From Bdellovibrionales bacterium (GTDB taxonomy: Bacteria > Bdellovibrionota > UBA1018 > CAIMNF01), in the NCBI GenBank assembly GCA_018969905.1, contig JAGWXK010000006.1:1-49443 (forward strand): a DNA stretch of 49,443 nucleotides, written 5' to 3'. Positions 2,930-46,689 of the stretch are shown here, piece after piece (position 1 is the stretch's first letter; each line of letters opens with the position of its first letter). The notes beneath the pieces were generated by a model. It did not search any database. It saw only the letters and a program-made list of their open reading frames with translations, and was not told the origin of the DNA. The translations under genes were made by a program, and so were the position numbers.

Positions 2930-4642
2930 ATGGAAAAAAGGTCCGATAAGAAAACCGCATTGCTCGATCAGGCAAAGGCTTTGGCCACATCTCCCGGCGT
3001 GTACCTGATGAAAAACCCGGACGGTCAGATCCTCTATGTGGGAAAGGCCAAGAGCCTTCGTGCACGCGTAAGCTCCTATTTTCAGCCCATTGTGCATGAG
3101 CATCCTCGTACCGAGCTCATGCTTTCCGAGGTCATTGCATTTGAGGTGATTCACACCGAGACCGAAAACGAGGCGCTGGTGCTGGAGTGCACGCTGATCA
3201 AGCGCTACAAGCCGCGCTTTAACATCAGGCTTAAAGACGACAAACATTATCCCTATCTATCCGTTTCATTGAGTGAGGAGTTTCCGCGAATCGAGTGGAC
3301 GAGAAAGGTAAATCGCGAGGATGCGCGTTATTTTGGTCCTTTTCCTTCCAGTTTTGCGGCCCGCATCGTGATGAGACTTTTGACTGAAGCCTTTCAACTT
3401 CGGGATTGTGATTCAAATACCTTTGCCCACAGGTCGCGTGCCTGCATTCTGCACCAGATGGGGAAGTGTTCCGCGCCTTGTGTTGCGAAAGTCACCCGTG
3501 AGGAGTATCGCGAACAGCTGGCGCGCGCGATCGGAGTGATGGAGGGAAAGAGCAAGAGTTTCATCAAAGACCTGAAGAAAGAAATGAAACTTGCCGCAGA
3601 AGAGGAGCGCTATGAGGATGCGGCCCGGATTCGCGATCAGATTCAAGCGGTGCAAATCGTATCCCAGACCCAGTCGGTGGTGGATGCCGACCAACGCCTT
3701 GACCTTGATGTGTTTTCGATTGCGGAAAAAGAGGGAATTGCCCACGGAGTGGTGCTGCAAGTTCGGGGCGGAAAGCTTTTGTCGGTGAAGCACTATGATG
3801 TGCTGAATTTTGATGGGACGCTCTCGAAGGGCGATATCCTGCATGATTTCCTGACCCAGCACGTGCTGTTGATGGAAGAGGGGAATGAACTTGTTCATGC
3901 CAAGGCGTTTTTGATGAGAGAGTTACCGCTTGATCATGAGTTTTTGGAAGGGGCGCTCAAGATCACGATTGAAACCCCGAAGTCGGCCGCACAAAAGCAG
4001 CTGGTCTCGGTTGCTGAGACGAACGCACGGTTTGCGGTCGAGAATGCCAAGCGCGAGAACGCGGGACACGGGATTCAGGCGCTGGAGGAGATTCGCGAGA
4101 AGCTCGGGCTTGAGCGGGTACCCCGCCGGATTGAATGTTATGACATTTCAAACACGCAAGGAGAGGACTCGGTGGCATCGCGCGTGGTGTTCATGGATGG
4201 CGCGCCCGAGAAAACGCTTTATCGGCGCTACAAGATCAAGACCGTGCGGGGAGCGGATGATTTCGCCTCAATGCGGGAGATCTTCGAGCGCAGGTTTTCC
4301 AAAATGGACATGGGGCCCGGAAACGAGAAGCCCGATCTTGTGGTGGTGGACGGGGGCAAGGGTCAGCTTGCGCAGGCGCGGGCGATTTTTGAAGATCTCG
4401 GGATTCAGGGAGTGGATTTGGTGGGGCTTGCAAAAGCTCGCACGGAATCGAATTTTCAATCAAAGGAAGTTGAGAGCTCGATGGAGCGGATTTTCATTCC
4501 GAACCGGGTAAACCCGATTCCTCTTTATCCACACACCAGAGCTTATAAATTACTGACCCATATACGGGATGAAGCCCATCGCTTTGCGATTACCTTTCAT
4601 CGCAAGCTACGGGACAAACGGAGCCTTCAGTCACGAGAGTGA
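2930..4642 (+). CDS. uvrC: UvrABC excinuclease subunit C, lacking the C-terminal HhH region
   Basis: UvrC makes the two incisions flanking a DNA lesion in nucleotide excision repair. Domains in order: GIY-YIG nuclease about residues 20-100 (GVYLMKNPDGQILYVGKAKS), a cysteine cluster near 175-185, the UVR domain about 205-240 (EEERYEDAARIRDQI) that binds UvrB, and the RNase H-like nuclease about 395-550 (CYDISNTQGEDSVAS, VVVDGGKGQL, DEAHRFAITFHR). At 570 aa the protein stops at RDKRSLQSRE, exactly where homologues continue into the tandem helix-hairpin-helix DNA-binding domain. Following bases in the other frames show no HhH sequence, so the domain is absent rather than frameshifted. No clear ribosome site precedes the ATG. 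Confidence 0.95.
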   Translation: MEKRSDKKTALLDQAKALATSPGVYLMKNPDGQILYVGKAKSLRARVSSYFQPIVHEHPRTELMLSEVIAFEVIHTETENEALVLECTLIKRYKPRFNIRLKDDKHYPYLSVSLSEEFPRIEWTRKVNREDARYFGPFPSSFAARIVMRLLTEAFQLRDCDSNTFAHRSRACILHQMGKCSAPCVAKVTREEYREQLARAIGVMEGKSKSFIKDLKKEMKLAAEEERYEDAARIRDQIQAVQIVSQTQSVVDADQRLDLDVFSIAEKEGIAHGVVLQVRGGKLLSVKHYDVLNFDGTLSKGDILHDFLTQHVLLMEEGNELVHAKAFLMRELPLDHEFLEGALKITIETPKSAAQKQLVSVAETNARFAVENAKRENAGHGIQALEEIREKLGLERVPRRIECYDISNTQGEDSVASRVVFMDGAPEKTLYRRYKIKTVRGADDFASMREIFERRFSKMDMGPGNEKPDLVVVDGGKGQLAQARAIFEDLGIQGVDLVGLAKARTESNFQSKEVESSMERIFIPNRVNPIPLYPHTRAYKLLTHIRDEAHRFAITFHRKLRDKRSLQSRE

Positions 4643-4961
4643 TCGTGATTTAGGCTAAAAGAATACGGCCTTGGCCGGCCAGCAGTTGCTGGATCAATCG
4701 CTTCAATTGTCGCATACGCCGAACGTATCAAGGATTAACCGATCAGACAAGGTGGATTTTTCCAACTGGCATCGTTCACTGTTGATGCATGATAAAGACA
4801 AAGCGGCACACCTTTTTAAAAACAGGAGCTTACTCCTCGAACATCCTGTTCTTTTCGCTTCCGCCCATCATGGGCTCGCTCAGAAAGTCGTAACCTCCTG
4901 TTTTCAAAAAGGTGTTTGAGCTTCCTCGAGCCAATCATCCACAGGGATCGATGCCAGTCAA
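4643..4961. other. Intergenic stretch between convergent uvrC and metB
   Basis: A 319-bp gap between two convergent genes. The 82-aa ORF listed here has no protein-like features. The only structure I see is the long inverted repeat at 4809-4914, annotated separately. Confidence 0.5.
4809..4914. repeat. Long inverted repeat, probable bidirectional terminator
   Basis: Bases 4809-4828 (CACCTTTTTAAAAACAGGAG) match the reverse complement of 4895-4914 at 19 of 20 positions, with a 66-nt loop that itself contains a GCCCAT-C-ATGGGC hairpin. It sits between convergent uvrC and metB, so it could terminate both transcripts. The arms and inner hairpin also resemble a small non-autonomous element or a structured RNA. 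Confidence 0.55.
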
Positions 4962-6122
4962 TTAGGAAAGCGCCTGGGTCAGGTCTGCGATGAGATCCTT
5001 CACGTCTTCGATGCCGACGCTGATCCGAATCAGGGAGTCCGAGATTCCAAGAGCTTTGCGGTTTTCTACCGGTACCGAGGCATGGGTCATGATCGCAGGA
5101 TGCTCGATCAGGGACTCGACCCCGCCAAGACTCTCAGCGAGTGTGAAGAGCTTGGTTTTTTCAAGAACCCGGGTGGCTTCACTGAGCCCGCCCTTCACTT
5201 CAAACGAGATCATCCCGCCAAACCCATGCATCTGGGCGCGGGCAAGCTCATGCTGGGGATGAGAGGGGAGGCCCGGGTAGAGGACCTTTGTGACCTTGGG
5301 GTGGGCTTCCAAAAATTTCGCGATCTCAAAAGCGTTCCGCTCGTGTTCCTTCATTCGGACGTGTAGGGTCTTAAGCCCCCGCATCACCAAAAAGCAATCC
5401 TGCGGGCCGGGTACCGCGCCGACCGAATTTTGCAGGAATTTTACCGATTGGTACAGATCATCGCGGCTTGTGATGAAGACGCCACCGACCACATCGCTGT
5501 GACCGTTCATGTATTTCGTGACCGAGTGAATGACGGCATCGGCACCCAGATCAAGAGGTCGCTGAAAATACGGGCTCATGAAGGTGTTGTCGACGATGCT
5601 GAGTACGTCCTTCTCGCGCGCGAGAGTCGCAAGAGCCTTGATGTCGAAGATTTTCAGCATCGGGTTTGTGGGGCTTTCAATCCAGAGCATGCGAGTGTTT
5701 GGACGGAAGGCCGCCTTTACTTTTGAGAGATCGGTCAGATCCATGAAAGTGAAATCAAGACCGAAACGGCGAAGAACCTTGTCGAACAATCGGAAAGTTC
5801 CACCGTACACATCATCACTGCAGATTACATGATCGCCCGATTTCAGCGTGTGAAGGAGGGTGTCGATCGTGGCGAGGCCCGATGAAAAAGCGAGTGCGTA
5901 CTTTCCGTTTTCAAGGCTTGCCACACAAGCCTCATACGCCGTTCGGGTTGGATTGCCGGTGCGGGCGTACTCGTAGCCCGTGTGTTTGCCAGGAGAGCTT
6001 TGGGCAAAGGTGCTCGTCTGATAGATCGGTACCATCACGGCACCGGTCCTAGGATCGGGCTCCTGACCCGCATGAATGGCTTTGGTTCCAAATCCTGAAG
6101 TAGAAATCTTGATCTCGCTCAT
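4962..6122 (-). CDS. metB: Cystathionine gamma-synthase/lyase family PLP enzyme
   Basis: A 386-aa fold-type I PLP enzyme of the Cys/Met metabolism family. Landmarks are YEYARTGNPTR (49-60, cofactor phosphate contacts from the neighbouring subunit), SSGLAT (80-84), ESPTNP (149-154), the VDNT segment (177-180) and the PLP lysine in SVTKYMNGHSD (Lys203). It likely joins an activated homoserine and cysteine to cystathionine, or cleaves cystathionine; gamma-synthase and gamma-lyase are not safely separated by eye. Its ATG overlaps the gshA stop by four bases, so the two are translationally coupled and share cysteine as substrate. Confidence 0.88.
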   Translation of the reverse strand: MSEIKISTSGFGTKAIHAGQEPDPRTGAVMVPIYQTSTFAQSSPGKHTGYEYARTGNPTRTAYEACVASLENGKYALAFSSGLATIDTLLHTLKSGDHVICSDDVYGGTFRLFDKVLRRFGLDFTFMDLTDLSKVKAAFRPNTRMLWIESPTNPMLKIFDIKALATLAREKDVLSIVDNTFMSPYFQRPLDLGADAVIHSVTKYMNGHSDVVGGVFITSRDDLYQSVKFLQNSVGAVPGPQDCFLVMRGLKTLHVRMKEHERNAFEIAKFLEAHPKVTKVLYPGLPSHPQHELARAQMHGFGGMISFEVKGGLSEATRVLEKTKLFTLAESLGGVESLIEHPAIMTHASVPVENRKALGISDSLIRISVGIEDVKDLIADLTQALS

Positions 6123-42876: not shown

Positions 42877-45699
42877 ATGAGGATGCTTTTTTTCATTTTT
42901 TTTCTCGTTTTCTTTGCCGGGCAAACGCCATCTTTTGCGGATCAAAATTGTGCAACTGCTCTTCGAGAGCTTTTTTCTCAGGAGATCTCGACCTCGGAGG
43001 CAAAGGAGTTTTTGAGTCTTCAGGCCAGACTCACGATTCATCGCTTGGCCTGGGTATATTTAAAGAAAAAGCAAAGTCTGGAGAGCGAGACCCCGAAGAA
43101 TATTGAAAGAGTGATTCTTCAGTTGCTTGAAGAAAAGTCGAAAAATAAAAACGCTGAATTCGTAAAAGCTCGGAATCTATTTCAGAGCCAACCCCTATCC
43201 AGAAACGCCCTCGCCGCGGTTGCTCCTTACCTGAAGGATATTTTACTCCATGAGTTTGATTCAGAAGACCGACCTTTTCTTTTGGATGAATCCGACGTTA
43301 AGTTGTTGAGCATCGCATCCAGTCTCGAGAGAAAAACGGAAAGCACTGGGCAGTATGATACCCGAATGCTCGATGAGGACTCGGCTCAGGGGGTTACGAA
43401 TTTCCTAAAACTCATCAATGCGTCTTATCGGGCCTCCATGGGGCCGGAGTTTTCGTCTATGGAGGTTGAAGTCAATTTAAAGGGCATTGAGAGAACGATA
43501 CAAGACATCAACGCCAAGATGATGAAAATTCTTGATCAGTTCAATGTCCCTCAAGAATGCACTCGGGGTGAAAAATGCCAATCCACGGTTTCAAATCTGC
43601 TCGCTCAAAATGAGGGTTTCAAATCGATCTTGATGGATGTGCTTCAGGAAAAACTTAGGCAAGAAAAAGATTTGATTGATAGTCTCCGTTTTAGGAAAGT
43701 ATGGCTTCGAGTATTTACCACTCCACCAAAAGTAAATTCAAATTCTTCTACGAGCGGGCAGGATGGGCAAGGGTGGAGCGCGATGCCAGAAAAATTGCAA
43801 CCCAAAACTGGAGAAACGAAAAATAGCAGTCTTCCCGATACTGGAGTGGTTCCTTTTGATCCCATTGCGACCCTAATCAAAGATAATCCGGTCCGAACAA
43901 AGGAGTTTCTATCCAATCTGCAGCCCGGATATGTTCGGTCCTGGGCAAAAGCCGTTGCCCAAAGTGAGAAGGTCTTCTCCTTTAACGGGAGATTGTACTC
44001 GAGAGACACAGGCAGAGCCTTGAGCGAAGCTGCATTTTTTGAGATGTTCCCGCCTGAAAAAAAACAATGGGTAAAGAGTAAAATTGCGAGCTGTGGTGCC
44101 CCCCTGCGACTTCTTGCGATGGCTGCGATTGGGAATAGAAGGGATGTTTTTGTTCATGGCGGACATTTATATGATGTAGGCTGCAATCAACTTGACCCAT
44201 CCGAACAAATTGCAAATAAAATAAGCAAAACCTTGGGTCAAAAGCGATCTAAAACGGACTACTCTGGGATGGAATCGGAATATTTGGTTGCGCGAGCAGA
44301 GGCGCTGATGAACGATAGCGCCTATTTTACTACGGTCGGGGTTGGTAACCAAGAGTTACGTTATGAGACCCTGTCTGGCAGGAGAATCAATCCAAATTTT
44401 AATCGGGCCAGTACGGTTAAGATTGATAGGAACAAATCGAATTATCTGAACAATCTTGATGATCACAGTTTGATTCGAGAATACTTCAGAATCAATCCGC
44501 CTACCTCGAGTCAGTGCCAACAATATACGGTCTTGGATAAGGAAAATGGCGTGATTCAGGTGTATCAGGCTTCGACCGGAGCCAGGCTTTATGAACAGAA
44601 TGTTTTAATTGGTGCTCAGGTGTCAGATGATAAAACCTACTGGGCGGGATACCAGGATGGGAATAAGGAGGGAAGCGGTACCACGGGCGCCGGGATTTTT
44701 ACGGTTCGTGATCCAAAAACCTTCAGTCAAGATGAGAAAAGTTATTATCAAAAAAACTACAACGGTAACCTGATCTCTTTTGGAGAAAGGGTGTTTGCTC
44801 TTCATCAGGTTCCAAATGGCATGGAGTATCGAAATGGTTTTTTTGATGACCCTCCATCTGGACGAAGGAAAACAGGCGGATGTGTGAACGTAAAAAAGCA
44901 GGATTTTGCAAAGGTCCAATCATTTTTGAAGCCAGGTTGTCAGCTTTTTGTTTTGCCTGAGACGGGCAAAGCCCGATTTAAAGTAGTAGATGGAAAAATC
45001 AATCTGGTTCAGTCAAAGGGTGTAAAACAAAGTGAGGTGGAGCGAATTGCTCTAAGTCAAGACCCCAAGGTTCCAACCCCGATCGAGGTTAAGATCACGA
45101 ATCGGGAGTATAAGAATTATCGCAGTTCTACATTTATGGACGCTATCCGGGATGAAAAGCCAAAGCTCATGAGTGCTCTCGGCGTTACGAACGAAGTGTA
45201 CAATCAACTCGCTCAGGTTGCCTTTGGAATCCTCGGTCAGGAGTCCGACTTTGGGAACAGCTTAAAATATAAAACTAAAGAGGAGCATCAGGGGCTGGTA
45301 ATTCTGGGGAAGATGAGAGAAAAAATCCTGGAGGGGGAGAATCCAATTACTGCAGAAGTGTTCAATACTTCAAGAGGTCTGACCCAAATTAAGATGCTTC
45401 CAGAAAAAGTGAACACGTATGATCCAAAAATCAAAAAGGAAACACTTGGGATTCCGAGGGATTCAGCGATCGCAACGATGTTTTACCTGGCTGAGGCGAG
45501 GAGAACGATTCTGAATTCAAAAGGCCCGAAGATTAAAGAATCCAATTGGATGGACTATATCCCATACGTCTACACAGGAAGAGTCAAAGCGTTAAGTGAT
45601 CCGAATCGTCCTGCCACACCTGATTTCAACGAGTATGTGCAGAATATGCGACGTTTTATGGATGGCGTAGAGATTCTGACTCTCCCTTCTAGCACCTAG
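42877..45699 (+). CDS. Exported L,D-transpeptidase-like/lytic transglycosylase-like fusion
   Basis: A 940-aa protein with a signal peptide (MLFFIFFLVFFAGQTPSFA, cleavage near residue 21). Residues 22-540 are helical and of unknown function, with several cysteine pairs. Residues about 545-700 resemble a YkuD L,D-transpeptidase: SSQCQQYTVLDKENGVIQVY, then His643 (ALHQVP) and TGGCVNV with Cys669, matching the H-x-x...S-x-G-C pattern although Ser/His-before-GC is replaced by Thr-Gly. Residues about 770-920 resemble a lytic transglycosylase: ILGQESDFG (Glu789) and SRGLTQIKM (834-838). It is therefore a two-activity peptidoglycan protein. It is unrelated to its neighbours. Confidence 0.7.
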   Translation: MRMLFFIFFLVFFAGQTPSFADQNCATALRELFSQEISTSEAKEFLSLQARLTIHRLAWVYLKKKQSLESETPKNIERVILQLLEEKSKNKNAEFVKARNLFQSQPLSRNALAAVAPYLKDILLHEFDSEDRPFLLDESDVKLLSIASSLERKTESTGQYDTRMLDEDSAQGVTNFLKLINASYRASMGPEFSSMEVEVNLKGIERTIQDINAKMMKILDQFNVPQECTRGEKCQSTVSNLLAQNEGFKSILMDVLQEKLRQEKDLIDSLRFRKVWLRVFTTPPKVNSNSSTSGQDGQGWSAMPEKLQPKTGETKNSSLPDTGVVPFDPIATLIKDNPVRTKEFLSNLQPGYVRSWAKAVAQSEKVFSFNGRLYSRDTGRALSEAAFFEMFPPEKKQWVKSKIASCGAPLRLLAMAAIGNRRDVFVHGGHLYDVGCNQLDPSEQIANKISKTLGQKRSKTDYSGMESEYLVARAEALMNDSAYFTTVGVGNQELRYETLSGRRINPNFNRASTVKIDRNKSNYLNNLDDHSLIREYFRINPPTSSQCQQYTVLDKENGVIQVYQASTGARLYEQNVLIGAQVSDDKTYWAGYQDGNKEGSGTTGAGIFTVRDPKTFSQDEKSYYQKNYNGNLISFGERVFALHQVPNGMEYRNGFFDDPPSGRRKTGGCVNVKKQDFAKVQSFLKPGCQLFVLPETGKARFKVVDGKINLVQSKGVKQSEVERIALSQDPKVPTPIEVKITNREYKNYRSSTFMDAIRDEKPKLMSALGVTNEVYNQLAQVAFGILGQESDFGNSLKYKTKEEHQGLVILGKMREKILEGENPITAEVFNTSRGLTQIKMLPEKVNTYDPKIKKETLGIPRDSAIATMFYLAEARRTILNSKGPKIKESNWMDYIPYVYTGRVKALSDPNRPATPDFNEYVQNMRRFMDGVEILTLPSST

Positions 45700-45714: not shown

Positions 45715-46689
45715 TCAAATCCTCCACCAGAAATCAAGATAGACAAGGTACCCCTCGCTTCCGAATTCCAGATTCGTAAAATCCCGGGCCTGTAACGTGA
45801 GTGCGGAATGAAAATGATCCCACACCCATTGATAAGACAAAAGCCCTCCCAGGGTTTCTTCTTGGATGTCGATATTTGGACCAAAAATGATCCGGTTCCA
45901 GCGATTTGTAATGTACCCGTAATTCACGCTGAACTCTGCCGAGGTTCTTCGCTGATACAGCTCTGACTCGCCGGTCGTAATCCGGAGCTGGTTGTAGGTC
46001 AGGAATTTTGAATTCGAAAACGTATCCCAATAAACTGAAAAAGATCCGATTGCCCGCTTGTAATCCAGGTTGTAGCGGGACTCTGCCCCAAAACTTATCC
46101 GAAAATCCTCGTTTTCAATCGCCTGCCATTTCAATTGGAGATTTGTTTCTCCGAGAATGTTCAAAAAGGGCTGCGTGCTGATCTGAAGGGTTTCGCCAAG
46201 CCCATAGCCGAGAAGCGCAAGACCCACAAAAAACTCGCCCGACTCAAGCGTGGCCGCCGTCTGACCGGTCAGGGCTCCGAGATAGACTTGGGGTTTGTAT
46301 TTTGAGGAAATGAATCTCTTGCCGTGGATCACTAGATCATGGCGGCCCTGACTCATTTGATCCTTTGATTTTTCAAAATCAGATAAGTCAATCGACTCGA
46401 CCGCATCATCGACCCGAATCAGGCCATTATTGGAGTGCGAACGAACACGGGCAAGGATGTGGGGGGATTCCGGGCTTCGAGAGGTAACCTCGGCATAGCC
46501 AAGGATCTCATTTTGTACTTGGTCCCGAATCAGCAGCAGGTCCCCTGGTTGAAACGATCCTTGCGCCGTTTCAGAGATGCTGATTTCGTTTGCGGATGGG
46601 ATCGAGCGGATGGTTCCGCGGGCAGGCTCGGCTCGTGCGTGCAAAGGATTCAAAAGCACAAAGAGAAGCACGAAAATTGCGGGTCGCAT
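45715..46689 (-). CDS. Outer-membrane protein with N-terminal beta domain
   Basis: A 324-aa protein with a signal peptide (AIFVLLFVLLNPLHARA, cleavage near residue 20). Residues 21-90 form a soluble beta domain (GTIRSIPSANEISISE, GDLLLIRDQ) resembling an OB/SH3-like insert; the rest alternates strands with aromatic residues (SYQWVWDHFHSALTLQ) and ends in ...VYLDFWWRI, consistent with an outer-membrane barrel. It is convergent with the fusion gene, with 15 bp between stops. No family recognised. Confidence 0.6.
   Translation of the reverse strand: MRPAIFVLLFVLLNPLHARAEPARGTIRSIPSANEISISETAQGSFQPGDLLLIRDQVQNEILGYAEVTSRSPESPHILARVRSHSNNGLIRVDDAVESIDLSDFEKSKDQMSQGRHDLVIHGKRFISSKYKPQVYLGALTGQTAATLESGEFFVGLALLGYGLGETLQISTQPFLNILGETNLQLKWQAIENEDFRISFGAESRYNLDYKRAIGSFSVYWDTFSNSKFLTYNQLRITTGESELYQRRTSAEFSVNYGYITNRWNRIIFGPNIDIQEETLGGLLSYQWVWDHFHSALTLQARDFTNLEFGSEGYLVYLDFWWRI

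Follow-up and report, generated by a model that had tools for sequence, protein, structure and literature searches.

An exported Bdellovibrionota protein predicted to combine a YkuD L,D-transpeptidase-fold domain with a divergent GH23-like lytic transglycosylase domain

The window analysed here, a contig of 49,443 nt from a Bdellovibrionales bacterium, carries at 42877-45699 of the forward strand, on which all the parts of the protein listed below are also encoded, an uninterrupted open reading frame with an ATG start that encodes a protein of 940 amino acids. As read from the sequence, its N-terminus is hydrophobic and ends in PSFA/DQ; a Sec signal peptide is predicted at residues 1-21 (MRMLFFIFFLVFFAGQTPSFA; 42877-42939), with a modelled helix at residues 2-14. 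The rest of this predicted exported protein consists of an N-terminal helical domain, delimited with relatives and the model (residues about 23-284; 42943-43728), a disordered linker with a pLDDT of about 28 (residues 285-326; 43729-43854), three helix plus beta-hairpin repeat units (residues about 327-530; 43855-44466), a YkuD domain and an SLT-like domain, a layout that recurs in orthologues. The repeat units share the motif F.F.G.LY...TG...P and correspond to modelled strand pairs at residues 366-375, 424-433 and 483-497. The full-length AlphaFold2 model had a mean pLDDT of 82.6 and a pTM of 0.48, with low confidence in the placement of one domain relative to another. The original prediction had correctly located H643, C669, E789 and, from residue 832, SRGLTQIKM in an exported protein of this length. 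It had also stated that the first 520 residues match nothing; this can now be narrowed in part, as the helical domain of residues about 23-284 recurs in the phylum, where it is fused to other partners (L003, L004, L005, L006, L063 7992-8903, L086 and L090), and the hairpin repeats come after it. Neither PHROGs nor NCBIfam gave a name to the 940-aa protein, PDB sequence searches using family profiles or single members as queries returned no relevant match, and annotated phage and plasmid collections contained no match.

Residues about 545-700 (44509-44976) are predicted to adopt the fold of YkuD L,D-transpeptidases. Pfam matched PF03734 (YkuD) to residues 549-689 (E 1.3e-5; 26.3 bits against a curated cut-off of 23.4), and structural comparison of the full-length model aligned the region with B. 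subtilis YkuD (1Y7M/4A1I group; Z 12.0, rmsd 2.7, 114 residues aligned) and with LdtMt2 (Z 11.2, rmsd 2.3, 123 aligned). As expected for a YkuD L,D-transpeptidase, the candidate nucleophile C669 is located in a Gly-Cys motif (TGGCVN, in the context RKTGGCVNV) downstream of a candidate catalytic His, H643 (ALHQVP; 44803-44805). H643, C669 and N671, the residue at C+2 (C669 to N671, 44881-44889), showed no variation among the 14 members with an intact YkuD site, one phage protein included. The two positions before Gly-Cys are variable in the family, with T/S followed by G/Q/S/D/N. The presence of Thr-Gly in place of Ser-His at these positions had initially been taken as a warning on activity. 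Solved LD-enzymes remove this concern, because Bd1075 (SRGC), Csd6 (TKGC) and Pgp2 (TRGC) also lack the His, which rules out Thr-Gly as a sign of inactivity. The domain resembles YkuD-type L,D-transpeptidases (PF03734; LdtMt2, B. subtilis YkuD) in its fold, His/Cys pair, Gly-Cys motif and LdtMt2-like Asn at C+2, and differs from them in the Thr-Gly pair, in its fusion to a C-terminal lysozyme-like domain and in the conserved flanking cysteines C547 and C688.

The LD-carboxypeptidases Bd1075, Csd6 and Pgp2 are likewise exported proteins with a YkuD fold, and they are active without a His before Gly-Cys; however, they carry an NTF2-like C-terminal domain after YkuD and Val or Ala at C+2 (CVV, CIA and CIA, respectively), whereas here the SLT-like domain occupies that region and C+2 is Asn671. 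In LdtMt2, a proven 3-3 enzyme, the Asn at C+2 (Asn356) contacts m-DAP (PMC11410929). Because the C+2 residue is as in LdtMt2 and not as in the three carboxypeptidases, the sequence favours transpeptidation over carboxypeptidation, without proving it. Apart from the window protein, the genome has a single detected PF03734 protein (L102 1366-2316), an orthologue of Bd1075 (E 1e-42 to 7O21), the Bdellovibrio curvature enzyme, which acts as an LD-carboxypeptidase; we counted the presence of this Bd1075-like protein in favour of the peptidoglycan remodelling proposed below. A search of the genome with PF13645 gave no match, and the control genomes likewise gave none.

The C-terminal region (residues about 745-933; 45109-45675) is a predicted SLT/GH23-like lytic transglycosylase domain. 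Pfam left the last 240 residues blank, with no SLT match in this protein, and PF01464 touched just 2 of 53 relatives (best E 0.01). Since the Pfam SLT models fail to recognise the domain, we refer to it as GH23-like and not as PF01464; it is a divergent GH23-like family. Its assignment is based on the conservation of E789, a confident model and structural alignments. E789, the candidate catalytic Glu (QESDFG, in the context GILGQESDFG; 45241-45243), is present in all 53 aligned relatives, and downstream of it the conserved SRGLTQIK (residues 832-839; 45370-45393), which was also used as a search pattern, is the equivalent of GH23 motif II, so that the sequence combines a putative catalytic Glu with a G-x-x-Q motif, as in GH23 enzymes. 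The AlphaFold2 model of the region, built from the 53 sequences, reached a mean pLDDT of 96.3. Foldseek returned no significant match to it (best E 0.22, MltF). Structural realignment ranked MltC first (Z 10.2, rmsd 3.7, 146 aligned), as it did for residues 743-934 of the full-length model (Z 10.5), although for a mostly helical domain a Z of about 10 is in the range where the tool cautions on chance likeness. The first 38 rows of the realignment were all lysozyme-like (MltC, Cj0843, MltF, Slt, MltE, g-type lysozymes, Tse3, a GH23 chitinase and phiKZ gp144), and the models argue with moderate strength for a lysozyme-like GH23 fold. The domain shares with GH23 lytic transglycosylases (MltC, MltF, Slt70 family) the fold, a catalytic Glu in ES.F followed by G.(T)Q(I), and a late Tyr-x-x/G motif; it differs from them in being beyond the Pfam SLT models, in long insertions between the Glu and motif II, and in a Thr that replaces the Met of GLMQ. 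Modelling could have returned folds other than YkuD and SLT, but the two folds obtained were those originally predicted, in that order, both backed by AlphaFold2 and structural comparison and the YkuD domain alone by Pfam.

We then considered the distribution of the protein. The gene was found in 1 of 12 genomes of the same genus, and in the order of the window one other genome has the protein, in pieces across two N-interrupted contigs. A search of the phylum with residues 310-764 detected it in 18 of 290 genomes, mostly from one genus of another family, identified by named copies as Bacteriovorax / Bacteriovoracaceae. Full-length orthologues are 936-1240 aa long and all run from an N-terminal helical domain through a linker, the hairpin repeats and YkuD to SLT, with extra hairpin units in the longer ones, and the Bacteriovoracaceae orthologues keep the domain order together with all catalytic residues. 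Because full-length orthologues of other genera, at 31-38% identity, also keep this order and these residues, the pairing of the two domains is more than chance. Identity between the window protein and Bacteriovorax was 48% for SLT, 43-49% for YkuD and 38-39% for the N-terminal domain, and lowest, 11-22%, for the linker. The dN/dS ratio was 0.06-0.12 in four domain-level comparisons between Bacteriovorax copies, indicative of purifying selection in close relatives; in the remaining comparisons synonymous sites were saturated. The YkuD-SLT pair was also present on two cellular contigs apart from the named Bdellovibrionota loci, one from rumen (L064) and one from Kiruna (L088).

In the phylogenetic tree, the window protein falls inside the Bacteriovorax-type clade (support 97/90 for the wider set), and horizontal transfer of the gene from Bacteriovorax is possible; against it, grouping with the sole other member from the window's order (L061) was not rejected (AU p 0.31). 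The contig itself is native. A binning artefact was ruled out, as the gene adjoining has 70-91% identity in four genomes of the same genus, and genome G007 keeps the flanking TetR and adjacent genes, with about 1.5 kb replacing the 6.2 kb that hold the gene here.

The gene is isolated in the window: a glyoxalase-like gene lies 560 bases upstream of it and a convergent gene downstream. This convergent neighbour (45715-46689, reverse strand) has no Pfam match and shows 46-91% identity across several genomes of the genus. In Bacteriovorax-type loci, the gene follows an SBP_bac_5 - OppB - OppC operon, either overlapping it or at a distance of 24-45 bases, and is itself followed by an aminotransferase gene; this conserved order is a hint that peptidoglycan turnover and the import of peptides are involved. 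As a separate observation, in another genome of the window's genus (L113, reverse strand) we noted an open reading frame (3022-4995) that by eye resembles a fusion of a lycopene cyclase with a Blh-type carotene oxygenase; its neighbours are a proteorhodopsin-like open reading frame (5074-6015) and carotenoid genes.

Many relatives keep the SLT domain with a damaged YkuD site, which reads TNGDIRL in L061, TNGGVVL in L062 and TNGQVQV in L063. In Bdellovibrio bacteriovorus (L079 6885-8705), Halobacteriovorax marinus (L071 7077-9098) and others, the whole His-to-Cys stretch is deleted. These B. bacteriovorus and H. marinus proteins of 600-670 aa have the same SLT domain; the remnant just before it lacks the catalytic stretch, but hhalign still identified homology to YkuD in the deleted form (probability 97.5%, E 7e-12). 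Neither of them has an NCBIfam family, and these homologous cutters are unnamed because the family libraries tried miss the SLT-like domain. Identification of the B. bacteriovorus homologue as Bd0519 by map position was ruled out, since Bd0519 is a 247-aa MltA-type protein. A degenerate YkuD with a retained SLT was found in about 19 of 53 relatives, a set in which SLT retention is over-represented because the loci were sought partly through the TQIK motif; the motif-independent search of the phylum gave four YkuD losses versus one SLT loss. The SLT tree requires at least four changes between the intact and the lost YkuD state, a count that gives no direction. Loss of the YkuD site with retention of the protein in several relatives indicates that the crosslinking activity is dispensable in some lineages. 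One genome carries two tandem, overlapping paralogues (L062 5999-8008 and 7995-11243, the same as L039 5811-7820 and 7807-11055) with complementary losses: the 669-aa copy has an intact YkuD and no SLT motif, and the 1082-aa copy a dead YkuD and an intact SLT. This looks like subfunctionalisation, and such a split is the expected outcome if both activities matter.

The YkuD-SLT tandem is also encoded on viral contigs of uncultivated phages, Crassvirales among them. Most of the 20 viral loci have both domains, several of them in proteins of 1000-2900 aa, with the signatures GC(I/L/F/T)(N/R) and E(S/T).(F/G)G, and one locus adjoins a stretch that matches a lytic tail protein family. On a Crassvirales contig (L118 2865-5624), a 919-aa protein with the order LysM - YkuD - SLT has the same tandem and both catalytic signatures, whereas LysM replaces the N-terminal domain and repeats, and its gene is flanked on one side by a portal gene (phrog_6547, E 4e-117) and on the other by a major capsid gene of Crassvirales type (PF23898, E 6e-121). 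The annotated phage collection yielded nothing that matched, and PHROGs gave only LysM-type matches to the phage proteins. In BFVD, the predicted "LysM domain-containing" viral protein A0A7S9XDV9 of Virus NIOZ-UU157 aligned over 661 columns (E 1.7e-16). Phages have to breach a cell wall, and by analogy an enzyme that cuts and reseals would suit predators and phages alike. We tentatively suggest, while considering it rather doubtful, that a self-limiting enzyme of this kind could be an ancient module common to wall-breaching Bdellovibrionota predators, Crassvirales and other phages, whose halves were repeatedly lost or split.

Judging from motifs and models, we give about an even chance to the reading that the protein is a periplasmic or secreted bifunctional peptidoglycan remodeller, which would cut glycan and make or edit LD bonds in a local cut-and-reseal. 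The GH23-like domain would cleave MurNAc-GlcNAc bonds non-hydrolytically through E789, C669 and H643 of the YkuD domain would attack the meso-DAP-D-Ala bond in tetrapeptide stems, and YkuD would then hand the acyl group to a second stem to yield 3-3 links, with the N-terminal helical domain and the hairpin repeats positioning both domains on the wall. Inhibition of lytic transglycosylases by LD-crosslinks has been shown (Alvarez 2024, PMC11390936), and the fused pair may therefore be self-limiting: crosslinks made by YkuD would restrain the adjacent cutter, so that the wall would be cut and resealed in one place. We infer the activity of each domain, transpeptidation and not carboxypeptidation, the coupling of the two, and a substrate that may be own or foreign wall.

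Three other readings were weighed against this remodeller. The protein could be a turnover enzyme with two degradative activities, in which YkuD, as an LD-carboxypeptidase, would convert tetrapeptides to tripeptides, SLT would free anhydro-muropeptides and a peptide ABC transporter would import the products. The SBP_bac_5 - OppB - OppC operon directly before the gene in Bacteriovorax-type loci is consistent with this, Bd1075, Csd6 and Pgp2 show that a YkuD fold from this part of the bacteria can be that of a carboxypeptidase, and Csd6 was the top PDB match of the full-length model by Foldseek. However, C+2 is Asn and not Ala/Val, the NTF2-like domain is absent, and the operon is missing from the window and is thus not essential to function; moreover, synteny within one genus-level group may reflect inertia. 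We regard turnover as possible but rather unlikely. The YkuD domain might instead be catalytically idle or drifting and serve mainly to dock the SLT cutter, as the relatives in which a degenerate but still YkuD-homologous stretch precedes a retained SLT would suggest. The intact H643, C669 and N671 of the window protein and all its nearest orthologues speak against an idle domain, as does the position of YkuD as the second most conserved part of the protein, and this reading seems improbable to us.

The third reading is compatible with the remodeller and differs from it in the target: a secreted predation enzyme that would open and reseal the wall of prey. The family is concentrated in a predator-rich phylum, its phage members are encoded beside virion genes, and there are parallels with phage wall-breaching enzymes and with the L,D-transpeptidases by which Bdellovibrio seals portholes and stabilises its niche; Bd0886 and Bd1176 of B. 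bacteriovorus strengthen the wall of the invaded prey (PMC10482364, PMC10127604). The occurrence of the gene in a single one of the 12 genomes of its genus argues against such a role, and we consider it unlikely as a specific proposal. For the cut-and-reseal remodeller, own wall and prey wall are equally open as targets.

We found no paper on a YkuD-lytic transglycosylase fusion in the open-access literature, which does not prove absence; as far as the searched literature shows, the architecture is new and the kinds of enzyme that compose it are known. The recurrence of the pairing in a predator-containing group and in phages suggests that the wall may be opened and mended in one place. Alvarez et al. 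left open whether predatory lytic transglycosylases can act on LD-crosslinked wall (PMC11390936), and the natural fusion described here, together with the relatives in which it is split or decayed and the versions found in phages, makes this question experimentally accessible.
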